Of a DNA stretch of 57,650 nt, positions 46,574 to 57,462 are shown one piece after another; positions within the stretch are counted from its first letter, which is position 1; every line of letters begins with the position of its first letter. The notes under the pieces are model-generated. The model was given only the letters and a program-made list of their open reading frames with translations, searched no databases and had not been told where the DNA came from. This DNA is from Cytophagaceae bacterium. GTDB lineage: Bacteria > Bacteroidota > Bacteroidia > Cytophagales > Spirosomataceae. The stretch lies in the NCBI GenBank assembly GCA_024642485.1, contig JAHEAY010000006.1:1-57650 (forward strand), in the 5' to 3' direction. The position numbers were made by a program, and so were the translations under genes.

Positions 46574-47347
46574 TTAGCTAGCTATATTGCATTTGAAGGT
46601 TGAAATCGTAACACATCCTAAGGATTCAAAGAAACAAGAAGTACTAGTGCCAAGTAATGTACATTCATATTTTTTTATTTCATCAACAGAACCACCTCTA
46701 GCCGAGAGCTCATCATCAATAGATTGCTCCCTTGTAAATCCCCAACCAATCGTAAATGAATAGATTGATTTACCAATTGGGGATTCATTCTCACTACGTA
46801 TGCTTGAACCATTTACAAGGTATGGATTAGATACGCGAAATTCATCATAGTAGTTTAATAAAATTATTGCCACCAAACGCTGCCGACTTGTCATGTCTAA
46901 CTTCTTTTGAAGGTTAAATGAAACATTATTTAATTTCATAATGAATGAGTTTGTTGCATTATCTACGGAAAGACTTGCAGTTACTCCCCAATCCTTGAAA
47001 TAGGTATTGAGAGTATAACTTAGTGCAGTTATTTTTTTAAAAACTATTTTTGAATTATTTAAGTTGATAAACTCTCCGTTTATGATGTTGTTTTTCCCCA
47101 AAACGACCAATGTCATTTCATCAGGCTGGCTTTGTCGACTTTTCGTATATTTATTAACTCCTAATAAATAACTAATCTTAGAGATATCGGTTTTTACAGA
47201 GTCAAAAGAGACTTCTTCTGATTTGATTTCTATTCCTACATCAGAGGATTCTAAAGCATTTTTGTTAACACATCCTTGATTGAATATTAATCCAATAATT
47301 AATGAAAAAAAGATGATTGTTTTGTGTGTAGTTAGGTATGTTTTCAT
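46574..47347 (-). CDS. Unknown lipoprotein with Cys-rich C-terminus
   Basis: 257 residues I do not recognise. The N-terminus ends in a lipobox-like LIFNQGC (Cys 26), preceded by a hydrophobic stretch, so it is probably a lipoprotein. The middle is beta-rich and charged. The last 32 residues contain four cysteines (YECTLLGTSTSCFFESLGC, then STFKCN), possibly two disulfides in the periplasm or outside the cell. The gene is visibly more AT-rich than its neighbours, consistent with recent transfer. The 33-nt element in front of the start codon recurs ahead of the gene at 57030. Confidence 0.65.
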   Translation of the reverse strand: MKTYLTTHKTIIFFSLIIGLIFNQGCVNKNALESSDVGIEIKSEEVSFDSVKTDISKISYLLGVNKYTKSRQSQPDEMTLVVLGKNNIINGEFINLNNSKIVFKKITALSYTLNTYFKDWGVTASLSVDNATNSFIMKLNNVSFNLQKKLDMTSRQRLVAIILLNYYDEFRVSNPYLVNGSSIRSENESPIGKSIYSFTIGWGFTREQSIDDELSARGGSVDEIKKYECTLLGTSTSCFFESLGCVTISTFKCNIAS

Positions 47348-52655: not shown

Positions 52656-53030
52656 ATGAAGTACCTACTTTTTATCCTCATTACTTTTTTGATTTCTGCT
52701 TGCACGCACCAACCTGATTTGACAGGTTTTGACGCGGAGGCGTTTAAAATGGATAGAGGCGGCTGCAATGGCCAACGTGCTAAGCAAGTGGCCTGGTTAA
52801 AAGCGCATAAGATGGAATTGCGTGGGACAACCTCAAATAACATGGAGGATATTCTCGGCAAACCCGATATTCAGCAATTAGCCGATCGCAACCAAGAATA
52901 TTACATCTATTTTCTGGAGCCGGGTCCACATTGTAATCAAAAGGCATCCCAAGCCAAATCGATCGCCTTTCGTTTTAGCGCCATGGGCATCGCGACTGAA
53001 ATCACGTTTCAGGCTGGCGTGACCATATAA
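52656..53030 (+). CDS. Small lipoprotein of unknown function
   Basis: 124 residues, MKYLLFILITFLISAC is a lipoprotein signal (Cys 16). The mature part has GGCNGQRAKQVAWLKAHKMELRGTTSNNMEDILGKPD and YYIYFLEPGPHC. The 'ILGKPD...YYIYF' pattern is similar in style to SmpA/BamE-like small envelope proteins that judge a ratio of lengths, but I cannot confirm the family. Two cysteines in the mature protein could form a disulfide. Composition is like the surrounding genes, not like the AT-rich block downstream. Confidence 0.7.
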   Translation: MKYLLFILITFLISACTHQPDLTGFDAEAFKMDRGGCNGQRAKQVAWLKAHKMELRGTTSNNMEDILGKPDIQQLADRNQEYYIYFLEPGPHCNQKASQAKSIAFRFSAMGIATEITFQAGVTI

Positions 53031-53157
53031 TGAAGCCCTCAATTTTCTTGATTGACCTGTTAGCAAAAAGCAGTAGGATTTTAAACCAGAGGATTTCGGG
53101 TATCAATCTGAACAAAACTTATAAATAGATTTCAAATTAAAATTCAATCCTATGCTT

Positions 53158-55809
53158 TTAAAATCTATATTCAATTTTAAAAAGTAAATTAATTGGTCGA
53201 ATTTTATAATCAATCTCTGAATTATATTGATCAGAAATATATACATATTTAAAACTATCGTTATTTAATAAATTATTGCCAATTAATGAAAGAGTCAATT
53301 TATTATCCTTTAATATATAATTACCCGAAAAATCTATAAAGTATAATTCACTATTAACATTATTATAAAAATATTTTTCTGTTTGTATTTGGAGTTTCAA
53401 CTTTGAATCAATGTTGAAGTTAAAATCTAAAAAACTTATATTATAAGAATTTTTATGGACAATTGTATTTGTCATTTCAGAAAAAACCCATTTGGTCCCC
53501 ATGTGGTAATTAAAAACGCCTTTAAATCCTGATCGTAATTCTATGTCAAAATTTGTATTTAAACTATTTATTTCTAATAAACTTGAATTATTTATTTGAT
53601 AATTATATTTAGAATTTGAAAGACCAAGATTAAGTTTAAAATTAGAATTAATAAAATCTAAGTAATAATCAAAATTTGAAGAGATATTAATTAAATCTTT
53701 ATTGTTTAAAAGACCTTTTTGTATTACTGAATAATTTTGATTAATCGAATAGTTATTGCCAACATATTCATGATTTTTAATATAAAAAAATAAAGTATTT
53801 ATTAATATATCGTCTCCAAAATTTCCATATTTATAATTTAAAAATAGATTTGAAGTAGTATTTAAATTAAATCGCCAAATACCCTTTAAAAGAGACCTAA
53901 TATCTGTTTGTAAATACCCTTGGAATAAATTATTTTGTGAAATATTTTGCTTTTTTATTGAATAGGATGCTGTAAATATATTTTTTTTATTTATAAGCCA
54001 ATCAATACCAATGTTGGGAACAACAAAGAAAGGTTTTTCAGAAAGATTTTCATTTGCAACCTTTAAGAGATTGAATTGTTGATGAAAATCTGATTGTAAG
54101 TATATTTTTAGATTATTTAAATTAAAATTATATTTACTTGAGAAGTATAAATCATTCAAATTATAAATTCGATCATTTTGAAATCCATTCGGGACACTAA
54201 GGCTTACTTGATTTTCAAACAATTCCAATTGCGTTTTTAAAATATTACTTTGAATTTGATTGCCAAATTTTACTTCCAACAAATTTCCATTTATGCTTTT
54301 GTTCAATAAATACCCCTCTAGGCCTATAAGTTGAAATTCCCCTTCACTAAATTGCAAAGTATTATTGGCATTTTTAGGCAACAAATCAAAGTTTAGAACT
54401 TGATTTGTTGTAAAATATTGAGGAGTATTTTTCTTAAAATATCTTCCAGAAAATACCAAAACATTATTTTGATTTATTTTCTCAGTATATTCAAATTTTT
54501 GATCGTTTGATTTTTTTTCAAAAAACAAATTTTGATTTAACATTTTTTGATTAAATAATAATTCTATTTTATCATATTCGTTGCCTAAATTGAATTTCCC
54601 TGAATATTTTAATGATTTTACTGAACTTATATCGAACGCAAAATCAATTTTAGCTAACCCCCCAATTTTGTTTTTAATACCTTTAAAATCTTCTGAGTTA
54701 ATAAAGTTCAAATTTCCAATATTAAATTGATCTATATTATTTTTTAAAAAAACATTATTATCGGAATCTAAAAAACCTAAAATTTTGAATTTTAGGTTTT
54801 CCGAAATGTTTAAAATGCTATTTATGGAGAATAATTTTGATTTATTAAAATTGAATCTTTGAATTTTCAGATTTGGTGTTTCAAAAACACCTTTAATTAA
54901 TTCGCCATCATCAAAATTATCATCCAAATTTGATATATTATTATTGTCTTCAGATTGAAATATTTTATTTAAATCTTCAATTGCCTTATCCCCTATGTTA
55001 TTTCCATTAGACAATTGATAAAATTTAAATTTTTTCGAAAATTTCATTAAATTATCTCTGAACTCATACAACATTTCATTCTTAAATTTACCCCCACTTA
55101 ATTCCATATCCCCAAACCATTTATTCTTTGCCTTATCATTTAGTGTTAAATTAATCGCTACTTTATTTGAGTTTTCTATTCCTTTTAAAAGTTTATTATT
55201 TGAAAAATGTTGATAAATTTCAATATTTTGAATTGGACTCACAGGCATGTTTTTTGTTAAAATTTTATATCCTTTTTCAAAAAAGTCATCTCCTTCAATC
55301 ATTACTTTTTCTACCTCTTTCCCTCCAACTCGAATTGTGCCGTTATTGTCAACAACTAATCCAGGAATCTTCCTTAACAAATCCTCAATTACTTTTTCAT
55401 CCCCTTGTTTATAAAAATCAGCATTAAAAACGATGGTATCGCTTTTAATTTTCATAGAACTTGAGCTTTTTATTATAACTTCCTTTAATTCTGTAAAAGA
55501 AGGCTTTAAAATTAATTCTATGGCCGTTTTCTTTTCCAATAATTCAATTTCAATCTTTTTGTACTCAAATCCAATGGAAGATACTGACAAATAATAATGG
55601 CCGATTTTGATATTTTTAAGCTCAAATTCTCCTGATTGATTGGAATAACTATAAGAAATAAATTTATTTGAGGAATCTTTTAAAATTACACTTGCAGAAA
55701 TAATTGGTTTTTTCTCAAAATCAAATATTTTTCCAGAAATATTACACTGAGAAAAAATATCAAAAAATGAAAAAATTAGCAGTAAAGTTTGAACATATTT
55801 TTTAGCCAC
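53158..55809 (-). CDS. TonB-type outer-membrane barrel protein with carboxypeptidase-like N-domain
   Basis: 883 residues with a GTG start (no nearby ATG) and a signal peptide (VQTLLLIFSFFDIFSQ). Residues about 20-105 are a carboxypeptidase-regulatory-like domain (ISGKIFDFEKKPIISASVILKD). About 115-220 is a plug-like domain (VIEDLLRKIPGLVVDNNGTIRVGGKEVEKVMIEGDDFF), followed by a long beta-barrel rich in Asn, Phe, Ile and Lys. This is the Bacteroidota outer-membrane beta-barrel family related to TonB-dependent receptors; no TonB box is obvious. The paired upstream gene is GLPGLI, a known frequent neighbour. The gene is markedly AT-rich. Substrate unknown. Confidence 0.85.
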   Translation of the reverse strand: MAKKYVQTLLLIFSFFDIFSQCNISGKIFDFEKKPIISASVILKDSSNKFISYSYSNQSGEFELKNIKIGHYYLSVSSIGFEYKKIEIELLEKKTAIELILKPSFTELKEVIIKSSSSMKIKSDTIVFNADFYKQGDEKVIEDLLRKIPGLVVDNNGTIRVGGKEVEKVMIEGDDFFEKGYKILTKNMPVSPIQNIEIYQHFSNNKLLKGIENSNKVAINLTLNDKAKNKWFGDMELSGGKFKNEMLYEFRDNLMKFSKKFKFYQLSNGNNIGDKAIEDLNKIFQSEDNNNISNLDDNFDDGELIKGVFETPNLKIQRFNFNKSKLFSINSILNISENLKFKILGFLDSDNNVFLKNNIDQFNIGNLNFINSEDFKGIKNKIGGLAKIDFAFDISSVKSLKYSGKFNLGNEYDKIELLFNQKMLNQNLFFEKKSNDQKFEYTEKINQNNVLVFSGRYFKKNTPQYFTTNQVLNFDLLPKNANNTLQFSEGEFQLIGLEGYLLNKSINGNLLEVKFGNQIQSNILKTQLELFENQVSLSVPNGFQNDRIYNLNDLYFSSKYNFNLNNLKIYLQSDFHQQFNLLKVANENLSEKPFFVVPNIGIDWLINKKNIFTASYSIKKQNISQNNLFQGYLQTDIRSLLKGIWRFNLNTTSNLFLNYKYGNFGDDILINTLFFYIKNHEYVGNNYSINQNYSVIQKGLLNNKDLINISSNFDYYLDFINSNFKLNLGLSNSKYNYQINNSSLLEINSLNTNFDIELRSGFKGVFNYHMGTKWVFSEMTNTIVHKNSYNISFLDFNFNIDSKLKLQIQTEKYFYNNVNSELYFIDFSGNYILKDNKLTLSLIGNNLLNNDSFKYVYISDQYNSEIDYKIRPINLLFKIEYRF

Positions 55810-55838
55810 GAATTATATAAATTTCAACAAATTATAAA

Positions 55839-56588
55839 TTATTGATCTTCTATTTCTATTGATTTTGGGGAACTTGATTCTATTTCGACTTTAAATCGCC
55901 TATCGAGTTTTGATGACATTTTTTGAGTTAATTTTTCCAATTCTTTATTAACCATTTGGTTATACTCCATTCTTCTAATTTGTGGATAATTTACTTTTGG
56001 AAATTGTAGCTTTTCAAAATGCTTATTGATTAATATTTTTTTTGCTATTAATATTATTTCTTTTTTAGAGTCTGAAACTTCCAATATTAATCCAGGCAAT
56101 CCATGAAGTTTTAAAGGCCCAAAATATCCAGGAATGTCTGGGGTAAACCAAACTAAATATTCACGACCTTTAAATTTTTTCAAAGCTTTTAAAGTTTTAT
56201 AGCCTTCAATCATTTTGCTTTCTTCAGTTATCTCCCAATCAGAATTTTTTAATGAATCAACAATTTGATAATATTTTTTTGGTTCAAATCCTTTAACAAT
56301 TTCTAAATTTAATTTTTGAAACTTATCTGAAAAAATAAAATTTTCCATTTTGCTACCAATAGAAAAATTATAATTCCCATTCTTCTCTTTTAAATGGTCA
56401 TTCGATTCTGTGTTAAAATATTTAAAATATGAAACTGAATCATTTTGAATCAAAATTGCACTATAATTTTTTATATTATTTAATATCAATCTGAAATCAT
56501 ATTCAACGACCAAATTGTTACTCTGAGAATATATTTGAGTATTAATTAAAAAAGAGGTTGCAAAAAATAACAATATTTTAATCTTCAT
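55839..56588 (-). CDS. GLPGLI family protein
   Basis: 249 residues with signal peptide (ILLFFATSFLINTQIYSQ). The hallmark HGLPGLILEVSD lies near residue 163, after YLVWFTPDIPGYFGPLKL; DWEITEESKMIEGYKTLKA near 120 is also typical. These exported proteins are beta-rich, common in Bacteroidota and regularly encoded beside carboxypeptidase-like TonB-type barrels; their function is unknown. It is 29 bp upstream of the barrel gene on the same strand, one operon. AT-rich like the rest of the block. Confidence 0.92.
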   Translation of the reverse strand: MKIKILLFFATSFLINTQIYSQSNNLVVEYDFRLILNNIKNYSAILIQNDSVSYFKYFNTESNDHLKEKNGNYNFSIGSKMENFIFSDKFQKLNLEIVKGFEPKKYYQIVDSLKNSDWEITEESKMIEGYKTLKALKKFKGREYLVWFTPDIPGYFGPLKLHGLPGLILEVSDSKKEIILIAKKILINKHFEKLQFPKVNYPQIRRMEYNQMVNKELEKLTQKMSSKLDRRFKVEIESSSPKSIEIEDQ

Positions 56589-56652
56589 TACAAAATATTT
56601 TTAGGAAACAAAAGTTACTAACTTTTAATGTCAATAACCTTTGTTTTAATTG

Positions 56653-57030
56653 TTAAAAGCGTTTACGTATTTCAGTTTGAATCTGTTTCATAAGCTCTTC
56701 AGCTATCTGGCCTCCTTTAGCTCTTACCTCACCACAAGGACCAGAAACAGTGATACGAATTTCAAAACTAATCGGGCCAAGATCAACAGTTCCTGTAATT
56801 GATATCTCACATTCTAACTCATAAGGAAATGCGCTTAAACTTTCAGTTACAAAATTTTCAATAATACTATAAATCTTCCCGTCTGGTAAATCATTTATTT
56901 TTCCTAAGTTCAACTTTAAACTAACTTTATCATTAGGTTCAAACTTATTAAATGGGTTAAATGAATTATAATTTGCATGAATGCTTGCTCCAAAAAGCAT
57001 TAAAAACGCCACTATTAATATTTTTTTCAT
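56653..57030 (-). CDS. Small exported protein of unknown function
   Basis: 125 residues that I do not recognise. MKKILIVAFLMLFGASIHA is a clear signal peptide, leaving about 106 residues. The centre has two cysteines, in ELECEISIT and SGPCGEVRAKGG, which could form one disulfide, and strands between (TVDLGPISFEIRITVSG). The C-terminus is a basic amphipathic helix (AEELMKQIQTEIRKRF). It precedes the GLPGLI-barrel pair by 64 bp on the same strand and could share their transcript. The 33-nt element found ahead of the lipoprotein at 47347 lies 27 nt before its ATG. It is a candidate substrate or partner of that pair, an inference. Confidence 0.7.
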   Translation of the reverse strand: MKKILIVAFLMLFGASIHANYNSFNPFNKFEPNDKVSLKLNLGKINDLPDGKIYSIIENFVTESLSAFPYELECEISITGTVDLGPISFEIRITVSGPCGEVRAKGGQIAEELMKQIQTEIRKRF

Positions 57031-57057
57031 ATTTAATTTTAAATTATTACATGGTTC

Positions 57058-57089
57058 TCCCTACTCTTTTAGGCTTTTCGGGATCCTCC
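57058..57089 (-). promoter_or_regulatory. 33-nt shared upstream element, copy B
   Basis: Minus strand: GGAGGATCCCGAAAAGCC, TAA, AAGAGTAGGGA, ending 27 nt before the ATG at 57030. See copy A at 47366. Confidence 0.6.
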
Positions 57090-57153
57090 TAAGATTTGCG
57101 CTTATCTCGAAGTAAAATTATCAGTTAAGTGATTGGAACGCTATCCTACCTAG

Positions 57154-57186
57154 GTAGTATTTTAGTAGTATTTTAGTAGTATTTTG
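57154..57186. repeat. Three phased 11-nt direct repeats
   Basis: GTAGTATTTTA, GTAGTATTTTA and GTAGTATTTTG stand head to tail. The 11-nt period is one helical turn, as expected of sites for a regulator that binds one DNA face. Confidence 0.6.
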
Positions 57187-57254
57187 GGTATTTGTCGTTT
57201 TTATCAATGAAATGAAAAGGGTCAATGAAAATACAAATTGTATAAAGGCTATCC

Positions 57255-57298
57255 CGTCCTAAAATAAGTCGAATATTTGTCAACCTGTTTTTAGGACG
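57255..57298. repeat. Inverted repeat CGTCCTAAAA/TTTTAGGACG
   Basis: Perfect 10-nt arms around a 24-nt loop between the phased repeats and the RNase R gene. It may be a protein-binding site or a weak terminator of the RNase R transcript; no T-run supports the latter. Confidence 0.45.
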
Positions 57299-57462
57299 AC
57301 TCAATGAACGAATAAAAATGAATCTAATATAAATGGAATGAGCCCAGTAGAATACCGAGCTCATTATATAAATTCTATTGTTTAATTTTTTCCCCCAAAA
57401 CAGGTGCTCTCAAATGAGTGTCTAATTTTTTGGGCAGTCAATTTTTCATCAAGGGCTTCATG

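Follow-up and report, generated by a model that had tools for sequence, protein, structure and literature searches.

The DNA analyzed here (the window) is a stretch of 57,650 nucleotides from a Cytophagaceae bacterium of the family Spirosomataceae (assembly GCA_024642485.1) and makes up the entire contig JAHEAY010000006.1 (C203 in our numbering) of an assembly that totals 2.54 Mb over 238 contigs and is 89% complete. It carries what we call a trio: a small exported open reading frame (ORF) with two cysteines, directly upstream of a GLPGLI family gene and a gene for a TonB-dependent-transporter-like barrel, all on one strand and transcribed in that order (Table 1). The trio is a recurring, horizontally moving unit in Bacteroidota and has the appearance of a system dedicated to handling a secreted disulfide peptide.

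Table 1. Features of the trio and of the inserted segment that carries it (positions in the window).
Feature	Position	Strand	Description
Small exported protein	56653-57030	minus	125 aa, ATG start; signal peptide, variable stretch, beta-beta-alpha domain with C74 and C99
GLPGLI family protein	55839-56588	minus	249 aa, ATG start; signal peptide
Barrel, TonB-dependent-transporter-like (predicted)	53158-55809	minus	883 aa, GTG start; signal peptide, CarbopepD_reg domain, plug, barrel
Inserted segment carrying the trio	53047..57437		about 4.39 kb; blastn against empty sites in three sister species
Direct repeat TCAATTTT, left copy	53039..53046		8 bp; in the left half of the split terminator hairpin; from the empty-site comparison
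Direct repeat TCAATTTT, right copy	57438..57445		adjoins the right half of the split terminator
IS3-family-type element end, remnant	57304..57407		86-88% identity to an element end on contig C61 of the same genome

A preliminary description of the window had reported an AT-rich block of three genes, and all three ORFs are indeed where it placed them, in DNA with a mean GC content of 0.241 as against 0.431 for the remainder of the contig. Along the sequence, GC stands at 22-26% from 53.1 to 57.0 kb versus 38-48% in nearly all of the remaining window (flank level about 0.45). The GC content at third codon positions (GC3) of the trio (0.18-0.21) is the lowest among window genes of at least 150 aa (next 0.27, median 0.43); the small gene, at 0.21, is thus far from the other genes rather than average in composition.

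The abrupt change of composition that had been noted at 53.1 kb coincides with a precise insertion. Three sister species (G154, G169 and G160), with which the glycerate kinase shares 88-92% identity, have the sequence of the window up to 53047 joined to that from 57438 onward, with an overlap of 8-9 bp (blastn). The sequence of the empty site, AAGCCCTCAATTTTCATCAAGGGCTT, resembles a terminator hairpin and lies between the convergent genes for a BamE-like lipoprotein (52656-53030) and RNase R (the latter identified by a TIGR02063 match in a sister species); the hairpin has a folding energy of -9.0 kcal/mol in the sister and is broken in the window by the insertion. Because the sister species carry the empty site, the block is a recent insertion, newly placed in this genome, and because the composition break coincides with a segment missing in all three of them, the observation is more than chance. 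The repeat TCAATTTT could be due either to target-site duplication or to microhomology. At the RNase R end, about 100 bp align with the terminus of an element on contig C61 that carries two transposase-like ORFs and was assigned to the IS3 family by reading these ORFs; within the insertion we found no recombinase, and at its ends no convincing terminal inverted repeats.

The leading gene had been described as encoding a small secreted protein with two cysteines and a basic helix, and both the translation and an AlphaFold2 model bear this out, the basic helix being C-terminal. In the model, a signal helix and a poorly ordered stretch are followed by two strands (73-83 and 88-98) and a helix (99-124), with a predicted local distance difference test (pLDDT) score of about 80 for the domain. 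The first cysteine lies at the start of the first strand and the second at the start of the helix, and a disulfide between them across the hairpin ends is plausible on this model. A fold search of the PDB with the small protein gave nothing below an expectation value (E) of 0.8, and the small proteins yielded only chance-level matches in Pfam and NCBIfam.

Whether such a gene accompanies GLPGLI genes elsewhere was surveyed at loci gathered via homology to the barrel or to GLPGLI, not via the small gene, counting as positive any exported ORF (by a crude signal-peptide rule) with at least two cysteines within 900 bp upstream on the same strand. Among GLPGLI genes scoring at least 200 bits against the profile of the window's subfamily, 13 of 13 had such an ORF, compared with 1/13 in an antisense control; these 13 genes represent 11 loci (tandem GLPGLI genes being counted separately), include the window and are mostly also rows of the profile. 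Generic GLPGLI genes (<110 bits) had one in only 7 of 41 cases (Fisher p about 1e-6 at both the 200- and the 150-bit cut). With the rule fixed beforehand, a second, independent set from Flavobacteriaceae gave 17/26 in sense versus 3/26 in antisense (p 1.4e-4), a count in which, on reading, two automatic positives (L209, L216) look spurious and four loci scored negative (L197, L198, L213, L219) yet show a plausible small cysteine-containing ORF. Homologous units of several genera share the short ORF directly upstream, with its signal-peptide-like start and at least two cysteines. A survey by TIGR01200 alone, on the other hand, returned mainly members of other GLPGLI subfamilies, which have no small genes: the majority of GLPGLI genes, the top TIGR01200 scorers for instance, adjoin other barrels or other genes. 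The preliminary description had treated GLPGLI plus barrel as one known pair; the pair is present, but it is not one thing, and only a subfamily carries the trio. Within that subfamily the small exported gene is conserved, being present in essentially all close homologues rather than absent from most of them.

The small proteins of the trio units are, judged from their sequences, homologous. A profile of 23 cores that excluded the window protein scores it at 19-20 bits (20.2; E 8e-6 among all window ORFs of at least 40 aa), compared with 7.1 bits for the best of 5000 shuffles; the 23 cores were hand-picked for the C-hairpin-C pattern, which favors a good score, and the genes themselves were located by position and not by similarity. 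Several small proteins closely resemble that of the window, for example at locus L204 (FCEVSITVKVRLGVDSNFVEASATVSGIPCGE vs. ECEISITGTVDLGPISFEIRITVSGPCGE). In the reverse direction, a search of 251 Flavobacteriaceae genomes with the small-protein profile gave 19 matches at E <1e-4, in 10 genomes, and all 19 adjoin GLPGLI and/or a trio-type barrel, although six of these genes are outside the profile; weaker matches, inside long unrelated ORFs, look like chance. At four loci (L204, L207, L218 and L238), two types of small protein recur together, one ending in GPCD.SLA..R.AI and the other carrying CTVSITVKVR.G, which suggests two-component peptides.

The middle gene belongs to a family (TIGR01200/PF09697) that is common in Bacteroidota and for which, to our knowledge, no function is known; one published study names its members solely as regulated genes. 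The window protein scores 114.4 bits against TIGR01200 (curated cut-off 50), contains the motif HGLPGLILE and is the sole GLPGLI copy found in the genome; most members of the family differ from it in having no small cysteine gene beside them. In an alignment, it has threonine in place of a cysteine that is nearly invariant in its subfamily relatives, and we have not treated this cysteine as defining. A cysteine relay from GLPGLI to the peptide, considered as a candidate mechanism, is weakened by the same substitution. There is weak profile similarity of GLPGLI to the N-terminal domain of PNGase F-II (4r4z) and to 7zgn, annotated as a Glpgli family protein (E 2.4e-4 and 0.056, respectively), but those are domains of larger enzymes and the trio has no glycosidase.

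The third protein is predicted to be TonB-dependent-transporter-like, with a plugged outer membrane fold. It matches PF13715 (CarbopepD_reg) at E 2.7e-12, and the matches of its AlphaFold2 model (mean pLDDT 80.7) listed by Foldseek against the PDB are outer membrane transporters of the plugged TonB-dependent fold, among them FoxA, FpvA, FhuE and FhuA (best E 8.7e-18), with modest template modeling (TM) scores of 0.3-0.5. The Pfam Plug domain (PF07715) gave no match in the window barrel and only E 0.025 in one relative.

A tree of 37 barrels places the window protein among 15 sequences that form a fully supported group (100/98), namely 13 from Flavobacteriaceae, one from its own family (G025) and the window itself; family f7 was read as Flavobacteriaceae because its member G623 shares the sequence of a Nonlabens contig (L033). 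Searching GTDB contigs for barrel relatives with a DNA pattern gave a single match, in Nonlabens. From its sequence, the Nonlabens contig might be an array of integron cassettes, a reading that we considered but did not adopt. The barrel relatives from the same genus (L171-L174) are only about 20% identical to the window barrel, lie at other sites and have other small proteins. That the barrel groups with Flavobacteriaceae homologues and not with its own genus indicates that the block was acquired horizontally. GC was below that of the surroundings in 13 of the 14 units measured (differences of 0.02-0.19), and since most units are GC-poor in this way, low GC by itself is no proof of transfer; the proof lies in the empty site and the tree. 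One unit (L195) is located on a Flavobacterium plasmid (NZ_CP092371.1, 5944-12061) between transposase genes and comprises four small genes, two GLPGLI genes with a near-identical middle in common, and a barrel. Its four paralogous small proteins combine near-identical signal peptides with diverged C-hairpin-C domains, as fits a diversifying secreted product.

Where long flanks were read, most units proved to be compact, with ordinary neighbors. In several, a standalone LuxR-type helix-turn-helix gene precedes the small gene (L171, L173, L174, L036, L039, L111, L045 and L116/L257; one confirmed by Pfam GerE), and two trios (L034, L044) adjoin response-regulator-like, histidine-kinase and lantibiotic-dehydratase genes. 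At one locus (L224:1929-10999), all on one strand, a GLPGLI-barrel pair lies between a cysteine-containing peptide with a double-glycine (GG) leader, itself preceded by a VKOR/C39/thioredoxin protein, and a C39 ATP-binding cassette (ABC) exporter with HlyD; a TolC-like gene was not recognized beside this exporter operon. At another (L225:2108-9379), a diverged GLPGLI gene adjoins a 55-aa GG-leader peptide, a squalene-cyclase-like protein, a radical SAM protein and a cytochrome P450, in what looks like an uncharacterized peptide natural-product cluster. The window block itself has no GG-leader peptide, C39 exporter or modification enzyme, such genes occurring only beside some relatives. GLPGLI, usually with the trio-type barrel, thus occurs with peptides that would reach the periplasm by different routes, so that the common element would be an outer membrane step.

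Other arrangements were seen as well. In a congener (L174:8131-9462), a macrolide-type glycosyltransferase-like gene separates GLPGLI from the barrel; two more small exported cysteine-containing proteins, a MauE-like protein and a second 777-aa protein lie behind the trio at L172:4115-8306; and GLPGLI genes alternate in arrays with small exported multi-cysteine genes at L079 and L083, with no barrel seen within the short flank.

The preliminary description had suggested that the pair handles the small protein, and this we infer as well. In our reading, to which we give close to an even chance, the block would be a self-contained unit, the small protein would be a secreted disulfide peptide with its own outer membrane transporter, GLPGLI would be its periplasmic partner and transport would run outward. 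Judging from the sequences, the small protein would be exported by Sec, lose its signal peptide and adopt in the periplasm the beta-beta-alpha fold closed by a disulfide between its two cysteines; GLPGLI, also in the periplasm, would bind or escort it as a chaperone or adaptor; and the barrel would then carry it outward across the outer membrane, much as Oar does for PopC in Myxococcus xanthus. Once released, the peptide would probably act on neighboring cells, either as an antagonist or as a signal. The TonB-dependent transporter Oar is required for PopC secretion (PMC6434023), and TonB-dependent-receptor relatives have been predicted to export graspetides in Bacteroidetes (PMC8939145). Because of these two analogies, taken together with the linkage and the context of the trio, we favor export over import. 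A broader proposal, that GLPGLI and a dedicated TonB-dependent transporter form a new Bacteroidota outer membrane pathway releasing diversifying disulfide peptides used between cells, is possible though rather doubtful; it would give part of the GLPGLI family its first function.

Import is the main rival. The small protein would then be secreted by a general route and either capture a ligand (metal, heme or other) or act as a pheromone, with the barrel importing the loaded or free peptide and GLPGLI receiving it in the periplasm. Pairs of a secreted binding protein and a receptor of this kind are known (hemophores), the fold matches of the barrel are siderophore or heme importers and bacteriocin receptors, and a sensed signal would be in keeping with the LuxR-type genes found ahead of the small gene in several units. 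We nevertheless consider uptake unlikely: the two cysteines, which the hairpin would pair, are accompanied by no conserved metal-binding motif, the very diverse cores are unlike a single-ligand binder, the units contain no inner membrane importer, and the association with C39/HlyD and with genes for ribosomally synthesized and post-translationally modified peptides (RiPPs) points to export.

The small protein could also be an antibacterial peptide released in some other way, with GLPGLI and/or the barrel providing producer immunity or an altered target. Units of antagonism are compact, mobile and diversifying, the trio moves on plasmids and insertions, and some units have lantibiotic neighbors; but a transporter of 880 aa that is more conserved than the peptide would be an unusual immunity protein, and GLPGLI genes and small genes do not vary in number together, making this quite improbable. 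Slightly less probable again is that the small protein remains periplasmic or surface-located as a subunit that gates or completes a transporter of other cargo, since up to four diverged copies per transporter and near-complete sequence turnover would be odd for a structural part, even though the gene order with the transporter is constant. As for a chance neighborhood, in which an AT-rich region merely harbors unrelated small secreted ORFs, short ORFs with hydrophobic starts do arise easily in such DNA, and the antisense control finds some; the excess in sense over antisense (13 vs. 1 and 17 vs. 3), the homologous cores and the reciprocal search contradict it, however, and leave it very improbable.

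Several observations weigh against export by the trio. Transporters of this fold are mostly importers, and, as the Oar study itself states, sequence is silent on direction (PMC6434023). One close homologue (L038) is without the small gene, and the numbers of small genes and GLPGLI genes per unit are not one to one. Of about 20 loci with long flanks, only two to four have RiPP neighbors, and no candidate immunity gene is evident in case the peptide is toxic. Finally, the window GLPGLI is without both the conserved cysteine and the tryptophan (GPWKL) of its relatives, so this copy may be altered.

Both larger proteins belong to known classes, and secretion that depends on a transporter is not without precedent. 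Like the barrel, Oar is a TonB-dependent transporter, with an architecture likened to SusC, and is needed for a protein to exit across the outer membrane; its cargo PopC, however, is a 50.8-kDa protease, and the available part of that report (PMC6434023) mentions neither a GLPGLI partner nor a linked small cysteine protein. Graspetide and other RiPP clusters of Bacteroidota with PF14905/SusC-like proteins (PMC8939145) also place short peptide genes beside TonB-dependent-receptor-like predicted exporters, but the peptide of the trio bears no GG leader, having a Sec-type signal, and modification enzymes are absent from the block. With the SusC/SusD glycan uptake pairs the trio shares the CarbopepD_reg domain and the transporter fold, although it is a three-gene insertion without a SusD lipoprotein or glycan enzymes. 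We found no description of the trio, or of a GLPGLI subfamily tied to a small secreted protein family, in the literature searched, which was mostly without subscription journals.

A conserved, substrate-like partner together with a dedicated transporter makes the role of GLPGLI directly testable. If the export reading is correct, it would extend the Oar/PopC precedent for secretion via this class of transporter and bring to light small secreted proteins that have stayed hidden, being too short and too varied for Pfam or NCBIfam.

Elsewhere in the window, one further AT-rich gene (46574-47347; GC 0.32, GC3 0.27), encoding a 257-aa lipoprotein-like product, has the lowest composition after the trio.

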